Part shown: one piece after another, positions 41,856 through 53,920 of the stretch | Position numbering within the stretch: position 1 is the first letter of the stretch | How the letters are laid out: each line of letters starts with the position of its first letter | From: Occultella gossypii | Lineage (GTDB): Bacteria; Actinomycetota; Actinomycetes; Actinomycetales; Beutenbergiaceae | Direction: 5' to 3' | DNA: 64,000 bases | Assembly (NCBI RefSeq): GCF_019947135.1 | Contig: NZ_JAGSHT010000005.1 | Location: 186,001-250,000 of the forward strand | Position numbers and translations under genes: made by a program | Notes under the pieces: model-generated | What the model saw: only the letters and a program-made list of their open reading frames with translations | Databases searched by the model: none | What the model was told of the DNA's origin: nothing

Positions 41856-44254
41856 GCACCACCGAGGTGGGGCTCGGCCTGACCGCCGCGGATGTCGCGG
41901 CCCGGGTCGCCCGCGGCGAGGTGAACGTCGCCCCGGAATCGTCCTCGCGCAGCCTGGCCGCCATCATCCGCGGCAACCTGTTCACCCTGTTCAACGCCAT
42001 CCTCGGCACCGCCCTGGTGGTGGTGCTGCTGGTCGGGAGCTGGCAGGACGCCGTCTTCGGGTTCGTGCTCCTGTCCAACGCCCTCATCGGCGGGCTCACC
42101 GAGTACCGGGCAAAGCGCACCCTGGACAAGCTCGCGATCCTCGACGCCCCGAACGCCACCGTCCTGCGTGACGGTGCCGAACAGGTCGTCGACCTCCATG
42201 AGATCGTCACCGACGACATCCTCCTGCTCCGCCTCGGCGACCAGGTGCCCGCCGACGGGGAGGTCCTGACCAGCCGCGGCGCCGAGATCGACGAGTCGAT
42301 GCTCACCGGCGAGAGCGAGCCGGTGAGCAAGCGCCCCGGGGACGAGGTGCTCTCCGGCTCCGCCGTCGTCGCCGGCTCCGCGGTGATCAGGGCCACCCGG
42401 GTCGGCACCGCCGGCTATGCGAACCAGCTGACGGCGCAGGTCCGGCGGTTCTCCCTGGTGAACTCCGAACTGCGGTCCGGCATCAACCGGATCCTCGTGT
42501 ACGTGTCCTGGGCGATCGTGCCGATCGCGATCCTGCTCGTCTGGAGCCAGATCCGGCACCACGGCGGCCTCGACCTCGCCCTGGCGGACGGCACCTGGCG
42601 CAACGCGGTGGTCTCCGCCGTCGCCGGTGTGGTCGGGATGGTGCCCGAGGGTCTGGTGCTGCTCACCTCGATCAACTTCGCCCTGGCCGCGATCGTGCTG
42701 GCCCGGCGGAAGGTGCTCGTGCAGGAACTGCCCGCTGTCGAGGTACTGGCCCGGGTGGACGTGCTCTGCCTGGACAAGACCGGGACCCTGACCGACGGCA
42801 CCCTCGCCCTGGCCGAGCTGATCGAGCTCAGCCCGGTGCCGGGTGCCCGGGGGGCGCTGGCCGCGCTCGCCGCGGACCCGGATGCCAACGCCTCCGCGGC
42901 CGCGATCGCCGCCGGCGTGACGGACGTGCCCGTGCCCGCGGCGCAGGTGCTGGTCCCGTTCTCCTCGGCCCGCAAGTGGAGCGCGCACCGCACCGAGGCC
43001 GGCACCTGGGTGTGCGGCGCGCCCGAGGTGCTGCTCGAAGCGGGCGACGGCGTCCTGCAGCGGGTGCGCGACCTCGCCGACACCGGTGCCCGGGTGCTGC
43101 TCCTCGCCGCGGCACCGGCGGACGCGCTCACCGAGAGCGAGCCGGAGCCCGGCCCGCCGCGCGGATTGCGCCCGGCCCACCTGGTGGTGCTGCGCGAGCA
43201 CGTGCGCCCGGACGCCGCGCAGACCCTCGCGTACTTCGCGGCGCAGGGCGTCACGGTGAAGGTGATCTCGGGGGATAACCCGGCCACGGTCGCGGCGATC
43301 GCCGGGGCCGTCGGCCTGGGTGGCGGCGACGTTGGCCGGCCGGTCACCGGGGTGGATGCCCGCACCCTGCCCGACGATGCCGAGGCGCTGGCCGACGTGG
43401 TCACCACCGAGCAGGTGTTCGGCCGGGTCACGCCGGAGCAGAAGCGAGCATTCGTGCACGCGCTGCAGTCCCGGGGGCACACGGTCGCGATGACCGGCGA
43501 CGGTGTCAACGACGCCCTGGCCCTCAAGGACGCCGACCTCGGCATCGCGATGGGCTCGGGAGCGGCTGCCACCAAGGCGGTGGCCCGCCTGGTGCTCCTG
43601 GACGGGCGCTTCTCGACGCTGCCCGGGGTGGTCGACGAGGGCCGCCGGGTCATCGCGAACATGGAGCGGGTCGCCTCGCTGTTCCTGAACAAGACCACCT
43701 ACGCCGTGCTGCTCGCCATCGTGGTGGCGATCACGGCGTGGCCGTACCCGTTCCTGCCCCGGCACCTGACCCTCGTCGGCGCGCTGACGATCGGCACGCC
43801 GGCCTTCTTCCTGGCCCTGGCACCCAGCCGGCAGCGGTACGTGCCCGGGTTCCTGCACCGGGTGCTGACCCTGGCGATCCCGTGCGGGGTCGCCTCGGCC
43901 ATCGCGGTACTGGTGGTCTACGGCACCCTGAATGCCCGCGACGCCGGGCTGCAGGCGAACACCGGTGCCACCCTGACCCTCGTCATCATGGGCCTGTGGC
44001 TGCTCGGTGCACTCGCCCGGCCGTGGAACTGGTGGCGGGTGGCGCTCTTCGCCGCCATGGCCGCCGGCGCCGTGCTGGCCATCGTCGTGCCGTTCGTGCG
44101 CAACTTCTTCGCGCTCGAGGTGCCGGAGCCGTTCACCGCCGTGCTGGTGGCGGTCACGGCAGCGGTCGGGTGCGTCGTCATCGAGGTCGTGTACCGCCGT
44201 CGGCAGGCGCACCCGGGCGCCGCCGAGGTACACCCGCGCACGGAAGTGCGATAA
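41852..44254 (+). CDS. ctpE: CtpE-like cation-transporting P-type ATPase
   Basis: P-type pump of 800 aa. Phosphorylation motif [10 protein letters not shown] with Asp308; actuator motif [11 protein letters not shown]; hinge [25 protein letters not shown]4 motif [13 protein letters not shown]. About ten transmembrane helices; there is no N-terminal metal-binding CxxC domain. The PEGL motif and compact size fit the CtpE group, for which Ca2+ transport has been reported in mycobacteria, so Ca2+ is the first guess. ATG 41852 overlaps the methyltransferase stop by 4 bases. The stop codon lies 3 bases before the acnA operator palindrome. Confidence 0.92.
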
Positions 44255-44256
44255 GA

Positions 44257-44274
44257 TATCTCGACATCGAGATA
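44257..44274. promoter_or_regulatory. 18-bp perfect palindrome, operator of acnA
   Basis: TATCTCGA-CA-TCGAGATA (44257-44274) is a perfect inverted repeat with a 2-base centre, in AT-rich DNA that stands out from its surroundings. It would cover the -35 position relative to the TAGCAT box at 44293, so a bound protein should block transcription. Size and form suit a MarR- or TetR-type dimer; the regulator is not encoded in the window. Confidence 0.75.
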
Positions 44275-44292
44275 AATTACCTGATGCGGTCG

Positions 44293-44306
44293 TAGCATTA
44301 AATGCA
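44293..44306 (+). promoter_or_regulatory. -10 box and small palindrome before acnA
   Basis: TAGCAT (44293-44298) is the likely -10. It overlaps GCATTAAATGC (44296-44306), a second perfect inverted repeat. The leader would be about 45 bases, with GAGGAG (44338-44343) before GTG 44349. Confidence 0.5.
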
Positions 44307-44348
44307 AGGATGCGGACGCGACCCGCGAGAGAGCGCCGAGGAGTGGTT

Positions 44349-47117
<2,769 letters not shown>

Positions 47118-47355: not shown

Positions 47356-49314
47356 TCAGGCGGGGGTGAAGCCGAAGGCCTGGCCGTAGAAGGCCAGCTC
47401 CGCGGTGGCGGCGGCCTGGATATTCTCGGCGCCGCGGAAGCCGTGGCCCTCGCCGTCGAACATGACCAGTTCCACGTGCAGCCCCTTGTCCGCCACGGCC
47501 TTGGCCATCGACTCGGCCTGGTTCGGGGGGACCACCCGGTCGTCGGTGCCCTGGAGCAGGATCATCGGGGCGCTGAGCCGGTCCGTGTGGTGGATCGGGG
47601 AGCGGGCCAGGTACCGGTCCCGCTTCTGCGGGTAGGGCCCGATCAGCGAGTCGAGGTAGCGGCTCTCGAACTTGTGCGTGTCCCGAGCCAGCGCCTCGAG
47701 GTCGCCGATTCCGTACAGGCTCGCACCGGCCGTGAACGTGTCGGTGAACGTCAGGGCCGCCAGGGTCGTGAAGCCACCGGCGCTGCCACCCCGGATCGCC
47801 AGGCGGGCGCCGTCGACCCGCCCCGTGTCCGCGAGCCAACGGGCGCCGGCGGCGCAGTCCCGCACGTCCGCGAGGCCCCAGGCTCCGCGTAGGCGGTCCC
47901 GGTAGGCGCGCCCGTACCCGGTGCTGCCGCTGTAGTTCACGTCCAGGACGGCGAAGCCGCGGGTGGTCCAGAACTGCACGCTCGGCCGGAACCCGGGGGA
48001 GGTGGCCCCGGTGGGCCCGCCGTGGCTGAACACCAGCAACGGCGGCAGCTGCCCGGCCGGCCCGGCTGCGCTGCTGGACGTCGGCGGGTAGAAGAAGCCG
48101 TGGGCGATGCCTGCCTCGGAGCGCCATCGGACGGCCTCCGGCCGGGACACGTCGGCCGGGTCCAGGTGCAGCTGCGAGGAGGACCTCAGCACGTTGACCT
48201 GCCCGCCCGCGAGGTCGAGCTCGACGATCGCGCCCGGCTGCGTCGCGGACTCGCCGATGAAGACCACCCGGTCCCCGTGCGCTCGCACCGGGCCCCACGG
48301 TTCCCAGTCGCCGTCCCAGCGCTCCAGCTGACCGTTCGCGGTCAGCATCGCGCCGAGGAACCGGTGCCCGCCGCTGGACCAGGAGACCACCAGGTGCGCC
48401 TCGTCGAGGACGTCGTGGGTGCGCGGCCCGAAGCCCCACTGCGGCAGCGAGAAGTCCGCCTCGGCCGGGTGCAGGTGCCGGGTCCGGGCCTCACCCTCGA
48501 CGAACTCGGTGCGGTACAGGTTCCACCAGCCGGTGCGGTCGTCGACGTGGATCAGGTCTCCGGTCGGGGTCCACTGCGGCTCCGCCGCGCTCACGCCGGG
48601 ACCACCGGCGAGCGAGCGCTCGTGCAGGAGCCGGCCGCCGCCGTCGGCCACGGAGGCCACGTGCAGCGTGGTCGAGTCCCACGGCATGTTCGGGTGGTCC
48701 CAGGAGATCCAGGCCAGCAGCGCGCCGTCCGCGGACAGCCGCGGCGAGGTGACGAAGTCGGGGCCGTCCACCAGCACCGCGATTGCGGCCGGGTCGCCGA
48801 CGGCGCTGCCGTCGAGCGGCAAGGAGACGAGGGTGGTCCGCGGGTCGGTCCGCTGACCGCCGGGGGTGCCGTGGTCCTCGGCGACGGCGTAGACCACCCC
48901 GCGCTCCGCGTCGACCTCGAGGTCGGCGTACCGGCGCCCGTCCGCAGGCACCAGCGGGACCGGGCGGGAGAACGAACCGCCGGCGTCGCGGTCGACCCGG
49001 TACAGCAGGTCGTCCTCGCGGCGGGACAGCACCACACCGGTGGGTGTCACCGCGTAGGACGCCCCGCCGTACTCGTGGGCACGGGTGCGCACGTCGAACG
49101 TCGCATCGACGACGTCGGTGACGGCGCCGTCGGCCTCATGCCGTACGAGCGCCTGCCGCCCGCCCTCGCTCGGCCGTCCCTCGATCCAGTAGGTCGCGTC
49201 GCCGTCGAGGGCGACCTCGGCGAGCCGGACCGTCCCCGAGGTGAGCTCGGTGACTCCGAGGGGGGAGGGCCATGCGCCGAACGGCGCACGAGTGCGGGTG
49301 TCGGTCTCGGTCAT
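47356..49314 (-). CDS. S9-family prolyl oligopeptidase / acylaminoacyl-peptidase
   Basis: Cytosolic serine peptidase of 652 aa. The N-terminal two thirds form a beta-propeller of weak repeats. The C-terminal alpha/beta-hydrolase domain has FSHGGPTGATSPGF (oxyanion region), IRGGSAGGFTTLAAL with the nucleophile Ser, GTDDRVVPPNQAESM with the Asp and FDGEGHGFRGAENIQ with the His. There is no signal peptide. ATG 49314 is preferred; another in-frame ATG at 49332 is possible. Divergent from the serpin gene with 53 bases between starts, so the two may share regulation. Serpins rarely inhibit S9 enzymes. Confidence 0.92.
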   Translation of the reverse strand: MTETDTRTRAPFGAWPSPLGVTELTSGTVRLAEVALDGDATYWIEGRPSEGGRQALVRHEADGAVTDVVDATFDVRTRAHEYGGASYAVTPTGVVLSRREDDLLYRVDRDAGGSFSRPVPLVPADGRRYADLEVDAERGVVYAVAEDHGTPGGQRTDPRTTLVSLPLDGSAVGDPAAIAVLVDGPDFVTSPRLSADGALLAWISWDHPNMPWDSTTLHVASVADGGGRLLHERSLAGGPGVSAAEPQWTPTGDLIHVDDRTGWWNLYRTEFVEGEARTRHLHPAEADFSLPQWGFGPRTHDVLDEAHLVVSWSSGGHRFLGAMLTANGQLERWDGDWEPWGPVRAHGDRVVFIGESATQPGAIVELDLAGGQVNVLRSSSQLHLDPADVSRPEAVRWRSEAGIAHGFFYPPTSSSAAGPAGQLPPLLVFSHGGPTGATSPGFRPSVQFWTTRGFAVLDVNYSGSTGYGRAYRDRLRGAWGLADVRDCAAGARWLADTGRVDGARLAIRGGSAGGFTTLAALTFTDTFTAGASLYGIGDLEALARDTHKFESRYLDSLIGPYPQKRDRYLARSPIHHTDRLSAPMILLQGTDDRVVPPNQAESMAKAVADKGLHVELVMFDGEGHGFRGAENIQAAATAELAFYGQAFGFTPA

Positions 49315-49367: not shown

Positions 49368-50690
49368 ATGGGACGCGGGTCGATGAGGACGGGTGGGCGA
49401 GGGTCGATGGGGGCGCGGGCGAGCGTGGCGGGGCTGGGCATCATGCTGTTGGTCCTGGCCGGCTGCACCAGCCCGAACGGGACCACGCCGGGCCTGGACG
49501 TCCTGGAGTCGAGGGCACCACGGGCGGCCGTGGCCGTGACCGACGTGCCGGTCGCGGCCGCCGCCACCGTCGCTGCGGCCTCGGGGCTCGGCGCCCGGCT
49601 CATGGACGCGGCCCCGGACGAGAACCTGGTCGTGTCCCCGATCTCGGTCCTGGTGGCCTTCGGGATGCTGCGGGAGGGCGCCGCCACAACCACCGCGGCC
49701 GAGCTGGACGCCGTGCTGGGCTTCCCGGCCGAGCAGCGCGGGGAGGCGATGAACGCACTGCTGCGTCAGCTCGAGCTCCACGACGGCGACCCGGGCGAGG
49801 TACCCGCCGGCGAGGTCCCGGACGTGCCGGTGCTGCGCGTGGCCGACCAGGTCTTCCTGCAGGAGGGGTTCGCCGTGCAGCAGCCGTTCCTGGACGCCCT
49901 CGCCACCCACTACGGCGCGAACGCCGTCCAGGTGGACTTCACCGCGACCGGCCGCGCCGGCGGGCGCGCGGTCGTCGACGACTGGGTGGCCGAACACACC
50001 GGAGGGCAGATCGAGGCGGCGCCGGTGCCGTTCGACCGGAGCACCAGGCTCGCCCTGCTCAACACGGTCTACCTGGCCGCTGCCTGGCAGGAGCCGTTCG
50101 GCGACGGGACGTCGCTTGGGCAGTTCCACCGGCCCGACGGCACGATGGCCACGGCGCGGTTCCTCGAGGAGACCCGGGACCTGGCGTACTTCGTCGGTGC
50201 GGACGGTGCCGCGGCCGTACGGATCCCGTACACCGCGGACTTCGCGATGGATGTGGTGCTCGCTCCCGAGGGTCGCTGGGCACCGGCCGGATGGCCCGCG
50301 GTCGCGGCCGGCCTGGATGCCGCGGCGGGCGCGCCGGTGCCGGTGGAACTCACGCTGCCCACCTGGGAGCACACCACCAGCCTCGACCTGCGATCGATGT
50401 TGCGCGAGGCAGGCCTGTCCGAGACCCTCGGCGTGGCCCCCGACCTGAGCGGCATCGCGCCGGGGCTGTATGTCTCCGCGGCCGCACATGAGGCAACGAT
50501 CACCGTGGATTCCGCGGGCACGGTGGCTGCGGCCGTCACCTCGGTCGCCGTCGGCGAGGCGAGCGCCGAGGTCACGCCGGACGCGGTCGTGTTCCGTGCG
50601 GACCGGCCGTTCGCCTACCGGATCGTGCACCTGCCCACCGCCGTGCCGGTGTTCATGGGCCAGGTGGTGGACCCGGGCGAGGGGGAGTGA
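49368..50690 (+). CDS. Lipoprotein serpin (serine protease inhibitor family)
   Basis: A 440-residue secreted protein: basic N-terminus, hydrophobic stretch and lipobox LVLAGC at about 29-34, so it should be lipid-anchored outside the membrane. The serpin fold is shown by NLVVSPISVLVAFGMLREGA, VADQVFLQEGFAVQQPFLDAL, LALLNTVYLAAAWQEPF and the C-terminal RPFAYRIVHLPTAVPVFMGQV. The reactive loop hinge (AGTVAAAV) keeps Gly at P15, Thr at P14 and Ala at P12-P10, as in inhibitory members. Counting 13 residues from P14 puts Ala-Ser at the scissile bond, an elastase-like site; the loop is longer than usual on the far side, so this is tentative. Serpins are patchy in bacteria. Confidence 0.92.
   Translation: MGRGSMRTGGRGSMGARASVAGLGIMLLVLAGCTSPNGTTPGLDVLESRAPRAAVAVTDVPVAAAATVAAASGLGARLMDAAPDENLVVSPISVLVAFGMLREGAATTTAAELDAVLGFPAEQRGEAMNALLRQLELHDGDPGEVPAGEVPDVPVLRVADQVFLQEGFAVQQPFLDALATHYGANAVQVDFTATGRAGGRAVVDDWVAEHTGGQIEAAPVPFDRSTRLALLNTVYLAAAWQEPFGDGTSLGQFHRPDGTMATARFLEETRDLAYFVGADGAAAVRIPYTADFAMDVVLAPEGRWAPAGWPAVAAGLDAAAGAPVPVELTLPTWEHTTSLDLRSMLREAGLSETLGVAPDLSGIAPGLYVSAAAHEATITVDSAGTVAAAVTSVAVGEASAEVTPDAVVFRADRPFAYRIVHLPTAVPVFMGQVVDPGEGE

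Positions 50691-50726: not shown

Positions 50727-53920
<3,194 letters not shown>

Follow-up and report, generated by a model that had tools for sequence, protein, structure and literature searches.

The role of serpins in prokaryotes is described as enigmatic by Spence et al. 2021, a study based on a serpin phylogeny of 6,000 sequences, in which actinobacteria are among the phyla with serpins and a membrane-anchored class is used for prokaryotic members (PMC8233489). The described systems closest to the locus studied here include: miropin of Tannerella forsythia (group T), likewise a bacterial inhibitory serpin, which has been suggested to be surface-exposed (PMC4604654); the serpin of Bifidobacterium longum, also actinobacterial, which is reported to inhibit neutrophil elastase (PMC6718151, PMC5127057); thermopin of Thermobifida fusca (group U), another actinobacterial serpin, with PDB entry 1SNG (PMC8233489); and Pnserpin and Tkserpin, which are archaeal and hyperthermophilic and belong to serpins for which an intracellular housekeeping role is supposed.

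Here we analyse a serpin gene of Occultella gossypii, whose genus is placed in Ruaniaceae by the NCBI taxonomy. The gene lies in a window of 64,000 nucleotides (the whole stretch of DNA that was analysed, positions 186,001 to 250,000 of contig NZ_JAGSHT010000005.1, assembly GCF_019947135.1), to which all coordinates refer. Since both the membrane-anchored class and actinobacterial serpins have already been described, the lipoprotein serpin found here is of a known kind; among the matches listed in the open-licence literature, none describes an Occultella serpin, a Cellulomonas serpin or this gene. It differs from its described relatives in several respects. Miropin comes from a Gram-negative oral pathogen and has known targets. 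B. longum is a gut commensal with known host targets, and its serpin is likened to the present one by description. Thermopin matches the Occultella serpin with an E value of 1.1e-22, but its host is a moderate thermophile and its C-terminal extension packs on the breach, whereas the Occultella protein ends in VVDPGEGE. Occultella offers an intact predicted lipoprotein serpin in which the role of bacterial serpins could be addressed.

Family assignment and distribution

The encoded protein matches the Pfam serpin family PF00079 with an E value of 1.4e-62 and 212.5 bits (cut-off 27) over residues 76-436, and the match covers positions 12-370 of the 370 in the profile, which is nearly its entire length. 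A phmmer search against solved structures places conserpin first (E 1.3e-31) and PAI-1 second. The Pfam and phmmer matches together confirm the initial annotation of the gene as a bacterial serpin, and as such the protein is genuine but unremarkable in an established family. The features of the gene and its neighbours are collected in Table 1. The start codons of the serpin gene and of the adjacent S9 peptidase gene are both uncertain: the longer, mechanically called open frame over the serpin gene begins upstream, at 49272, and alternative in-frame ATG codons occur at 49383 and 49407. The lipobox is retained whichever start applies.

Orthologues are present in the three other Occultella genomes at 74-89% identity, with O. 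aeris at 89% and O. glacieicola at 74%, and the O. gossypii assembly itself contains two serpins (the second is described below). More widely, a sample of 396 Actinomycetales genomes contains 90 with serpin matches, fragments included, which represent 31 of 109 genera; in the family, 8 of the 24 genomes have such a match. Serpins had been called rare in bacteria when the gene was first annotated; in this order their distribution is better described as patchy, not rare. From 116 serpin-matching open frames, 88 unique full-length sequences were kept, of which 82 belong to Actinomycetales and 6 to Bacteroidales, and these full-length counts leave out weak or partial matches (for example those in G069, G080, G110, G113, G121, G126 and G267). 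The frequencies given below for the 82 Actinomycetales serpins come from sequences many of which are closely related, and they do not represent 82 independent cases.

Table 1. Features of the serpin locus, with positions in the window
Feature	Position	Strand	Basis or remark
Aconitase gene (5' end approximate)	44193..47117	+	PF00330 E 3e-165
S9-type peptidase gene, 652 aa	47356..49314	-	PF00326 E 9.2e-48; judged outside the serpin system
Serpin gene, 440 aa, predicted lipoprotein	49368..50690	+	Frame, PF00079, orthologues
Lipobox LAGC, with lipidation predicted on Cys33	49455..49466	+	Residues 30-33, sequence
Tether of ~30 residues, Cys33 to serpin domain	49467..49553	+	Sequence; first model helix from ~residue 64
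Hinge P15-P8, GTVAAAVT	50517..50540	+	Conserved in orthologues and order
Variable part of reactive centre loop, P8 to P12'	50538..50597	+	Orthologue variability
Predicted P1-P1' bond, Ala398-Ser399	50559..50564	+	P15 count; structural alignment
IMP dehydrogenase/GMP reductase-domain gene (boundaries approximate)	50730..52163	-	PF00478 E 1.3e-95; orthologues in related genomes

Lipobox and predicted location

The sequence LVLAGC follows a hydrophobic stretch near the amino terminus and is kept in all four Occultella orthologues; the lipobox reported in the initial annotation holds at the level of the motif. In a simple motif test at the sequence level, a lipobox was called in 64 of the 82 unique full-length Actinomycetales serpins; the shuffled control gave a mean of 2.6 and a maximum of 6 over 50 shuffles, and other open frames gave 18 of 1355. 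The group to which Occultella belongs is monoderm, and a predicted lipoprotein should therefore be displayed on the outside of the membrane, beneath the wall. Such a position would suit the cell's own exported proteases and incoming ones alike.

The hinge, breach and shutter

The inhibitory type that had been assigned to the hinge from GTVAAA at P15-P10 (G384-T-V-A-A-A389) is supported, with deviations from the full motif. At P15, P14, P12, P10 and P8 the protein carries residues of the inhibitory type; among the 82 Actinomycetales serpins, P15 is Gly in every case, P12 is Ala in 81 and P10 is Ala in 80; and the segment P15-P9 carries 0 or 1 nonsynonymous difference per pair in the six ortholog pairs from Occultella. 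Measured against the inhibitory motif ExGTEAAAA, given for P17-P9 in PMC8233489, the Occultella serpin has Ser instead of Glu at P17 and Val at P13 and P9. Across the order, 71 of the 82 serpins have Glu at P17, while Ser and Ala occur there in 4 each. The Ser at P17 is a deviation that the initial annotation did not mention.

In alpha1-antitrypsin the P17 Glu pairs with Lys290. The Occultella serpin combines the P17 Ser with a Thr at the position of this Lys partner, a Ser/Thr pair that is found in 3 of the 82. The conserved shutter and breach positions of serpins, S90, N232, W240, P331 and H374, are all present. At position 374 the order is divided between Gln (49 of 82) and His (33), and the residue here is His.

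Predicted structure of the reactive loop

The fold of the protein was predicted with AF2 for residues 63-440 from 12 sequences (pLDDT 83.9, pTM 0.81); the tether is thus absent from the model, which is a prediction and not a solved structure, represents the inserted state and is silent on the native state. The model strand 322-335 corresponds to P15-P2 and is placed like the inserted strand of cleaved serpins. When the model is compared with known structures by VIA-align, cleaved serpins rank first, with 1hle_A at a Z score of 39.0 (rmsd 1.8 A, 319 residues aligned), and miropin cleaved by subtilisin (5ncu_A) matches with a Z score of 37.5 at 25% identity. In Foldseek, several full-length chains superpose with an rmsd near 17 A, which by our reading is due to the displaced part after P1; residues 339-344 of the model, immediately past P1', have pLDDT values below 50.

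Counting from the hinge Gly puts P1 at Ala398 (codon 50559-50561). Structural alignment points to the same residue: model residue 336, which is Ala398, is the last one aligned, and it is aligned to residue 358 of cleaved 8api_A and 7api_A, the ranges reporting only the first and last aligned residues. Residue 358 is the known P1 of alpha1-antitrypsin. The distance from P15 to the xRPF motif is 28 residues, a length shared by 10 of the 82 order serpins, with 26 residues in 37 and 27 in 20. The initial reading would have been refuted by a predicted loop whose length does not permit insertion; with a strand at P15-P2 in the model and P1 at the place of the alpha1-antitrypsin P1, the loop looks to be of the right length for insertion. 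The counted P1 is a soft guide, however, because cleavage of the bacterial siropins was found at P3-P2 and P6-P5 (PMC5127057).

A variable bait in a conserved frame

The reactive loop is among the fastest changing parts of the protein. In the four Occultella orthologues, a 20-residue loop window ties with two overlapping windows as the most variable of 421. Pairwise dN/dS ratios for P8-P12' are 0.70, 1.55, 1.20, 0.18, 2.32 and 1.86, exceeding 1 in four of the six pairs, and lie between 0.17 and 0.35 for the core; these are plain ratios from pairs that are not mutually independent. The signal region changes fast as well (0.52-1.73), and the closest ortholog pair reaches just 0.18 in the loop. 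When the domain is scanned in 12-residue windows, the variability of the loop is exceeded by 4 of 349 windows in Occultella; in five further genera the numbers are 2 of 363, 33 of 352 (genus g19), 20 of 350, 17 of 344 and 3 of 358. The bait thus changes between close Occultella species and the hinge barely does, which means that targets could be compared from one species to the next.

The residue at P1 takes part in this change. By count it is Ala in O. gossypii, Thr in two of the four genomes and Ser in O. glacieicola, in which the loop is one residue shorter (a Glu by alignment). The Ala-Ser bait bond proposed in the initial annotation is therefore upheld in its position, by both the count and the structural alignment, and is not upheld as a stable specificity, since P1 changes within the genus. 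Over the whole set of 82 the P1 residue, again by count, is Thr in 27, Ser in 16, Gly in 16, Ala in 9, Val in 9, Met in 3, Ile in 1 and Leu in 1, which makes it small or aliphatic in all and charged or aromatic in none. P1' is Ser in 38, Ala in 33, Gly in 9, Met in 1 and Leu in 1 (80 of the 82 have one of the first three). These counts and those of the lipobox suggest that tethered serpins with a small P1 are common in Actinomycetales. A small or aliphatic P1 would suit elastase- or subtilisin-like targets, and the Occultella serpin probably traps proteases that prefer small residues.

Taken together, the protein is probably a membrane-tethered inhibitory serpin, with family, fold and hinge arguing for inhibition; lipidation, protease trapping and the class of target are what we infer. 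After export the serpin would receive its lipid at Cys33, and the tether would keep it at the outer side of the cytoplasmic membrane. A serine protease that prefers small residues, as elastase, subtilisin or alpha-lytic protease do, would attack the exposed loop at or near Ala398, upon which the loop would insert into sheet A as a strand and carry the protease, now linked covalently, to the opposite end. There, as expected from family, fold and hinge, the protease would be distorted and dead. Because the loop evolves faster than the rest of the protein, the target probably differs between species.

Neighbouring genes and the history of the locus

The S9 peptidase gene is divergent from the serpin gene, with its ATG at 49314 on the minus strand and 53 bases between the called start codons, as the initial annotation had it, and the two genes are adjacent in all four Occultella genomes. 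This arrangement could be taken to mean that the serpin and the peptidase form a regulated pair, which we consider extremely unlikely. Full-length S9 orthologues are found in 15 of the 24 family genomes, and co-occurrence of the two genes is limited to Occultella: both are present in 4 genomes (all of this genus), 4 have the serpin without S9, 11 have S9 without the serpin, and 5 have neither. The neighbourhoods also speak against a pair. S9 matches near a serpin were seen at 4 of the 59 loci with longer flanks (loci with flanks of ~1.5 kb were left out), three of them from Occultella and one a match at 27%; and in genus g8 the S9 gene lies beside the IMPDH-like gene at all six loci and a serpin at none of them, with aconitase seen within the available flank at four. 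Moreover, the S9 protein has no export signal by eye, which would put it and the serpin on opposite sides of the membrane, and S9 enzymes are not known to be serpin targets. The serpin-S9 partnership, for which a survey of relatives had been proposed, was rejected on both co-occurrence in the 24 family genomes and neighbourhood at the 59 loci; the pairing is confined to one genus.

Aconitase is a neighbour kept more widely than S9, with a match at 10 of the 59 serpin loci examined. In eight genomes from two families, the serpin lies 3' of aconitase on the same strand: G001, G007 and G022 in the family of Occultella, and G355, G119, G218, G302 and G329 in another (loci L042, L044, L045, L092, L093, L095, L097 and L099). 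The gap between the two genes is 116-261 bases in six of these, 878 in G007 (L045) and 1576 in G355 (L092), and the IMPDH-like gene faces the serpin from 2.5-5.6 kb beyond. In the simplest history, the serpin would have occupied the slot between aconitase and the IMPDH-like gene since before the two families split, S9 would have entered it in the lineage of Occultella and g8, and g8 would have lost the serpin. Transfer may instead have been involved. The presence of S9 beside the serpin is best explained by history, not by function.

Candidate targets and functions

The proteases against which a tethered inhibitory serpin would act may be foreign or the cell's own. Defence against foreign proteases, be they of competitors, predators or hosts, was proposed in the initial annotation and is a reading that we hold tentatively and at somewhat less than an even chance: the fast change of the loop between close species fits an external, changing opponent, and miropin is suggested to be surface-exposed and to protect its bacterium (PMC4604654), although a location under the wall may limit large enzymes. 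A role in protecting the cell from subtilases (S8) that it exports itself appears doubtful. The tether would place the serpin where these enzymes emerge and mature, so that it could trap those active at the membrane, and small P1 residues suit subtilases. In the family, the median number of S8 matches is 6.5 in the 8 genomes with a serpin versus 2.5 in the 16 without (Mann-Whitney p 0.00013; p 0.013 by genus means), and trypsin-family matches are equal in the same 24 genomes (2 versus 2, p 0.94); O. gossypii has 7 S8 matches. However, the S8 contrast was first noticed in the same family that gave this p value, and all of the comparisons ignore relatedness. The pattern in family f9 looked supportive by eye, and its genus g45 was tested for that reason: in its 60 genomes, 11 of them with a serpin and two weak hits set aside, the S8 medians are 6 versus 3 (p 0.09), or 6 versus 4 (p 0.17) once six genomes are removed by quality filtering, and the trypsin-family numbers do not differ with and without a serpin. 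Genera g21, g19 and g29 have no S8-serpin link by eye, in counts that stop at 5; as the order-wide count scores at most 5 S8 candidates per genome, no statistic was drawn from it. The S8 statistics set aside G080 and G422. We regard the link between S8 and serpins as a lead only.

A broader form of the S8 reading seems rather unlikely. In it, serpins tethered by a lipid would protect cells throughout Actinomycetales from the subtilases that they export; P1 would remain small, the other bait residues would follow the S8 repertoire, and in two families the gene would have been kept beside aconitase. The protein could also be a non-inhibitory serpin, such as a binding or storage protein. The P17 Glu and the Lys opposite it are lost, and for a clade of Streptomyces serpins whose breach and shutter are altered, a non-inhibitory function has been proposed (PMC8233489). 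But the key hinge positions from P15 to P8 carry residues of the inhibitory type, and the hinge hardly varies although the bait does; we judge a non-inhibitory role to be quite unlikely for the Occultella protein.

Other serpin loci

The second serpin of O. gossypii (L046:2925-7558, contig C35) also has a lipobox by motif; it is missing in the other three Occultella genomes and is 72% like serpins of two other families. It follows a CBASS pair, consisting of an HNH-SAVED effector and a CD-NTase, and a resolvase lies further on; near its two nearest relatives, no CBASS match was found within 14 kb. In genus g45, G431 combines a small genome (2.5 Mb) and a single serpin with 17 matches to S8 subtilases. 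At L092:3815-6336 two serpins that differ in their bait loops lie in tandem, and neighbouring hits in G418, G402 and G397 suggest similar doublets.

One scan of contigs classed as viral returned four serpin loci, and a second scan found none. One of the four (L119) was dropped, as no plus-strand open frame of at least 150 aa covers the match. L118:1456-2469 and L120:1498-2580, on contigs of 136 kb and 22 kb, are serpin genes whose products have no signal peptide by eye. At L117:1-2127, the serpin domain ends an open frame of 708 aa, with an integrase-like gene (by eye) nearby.
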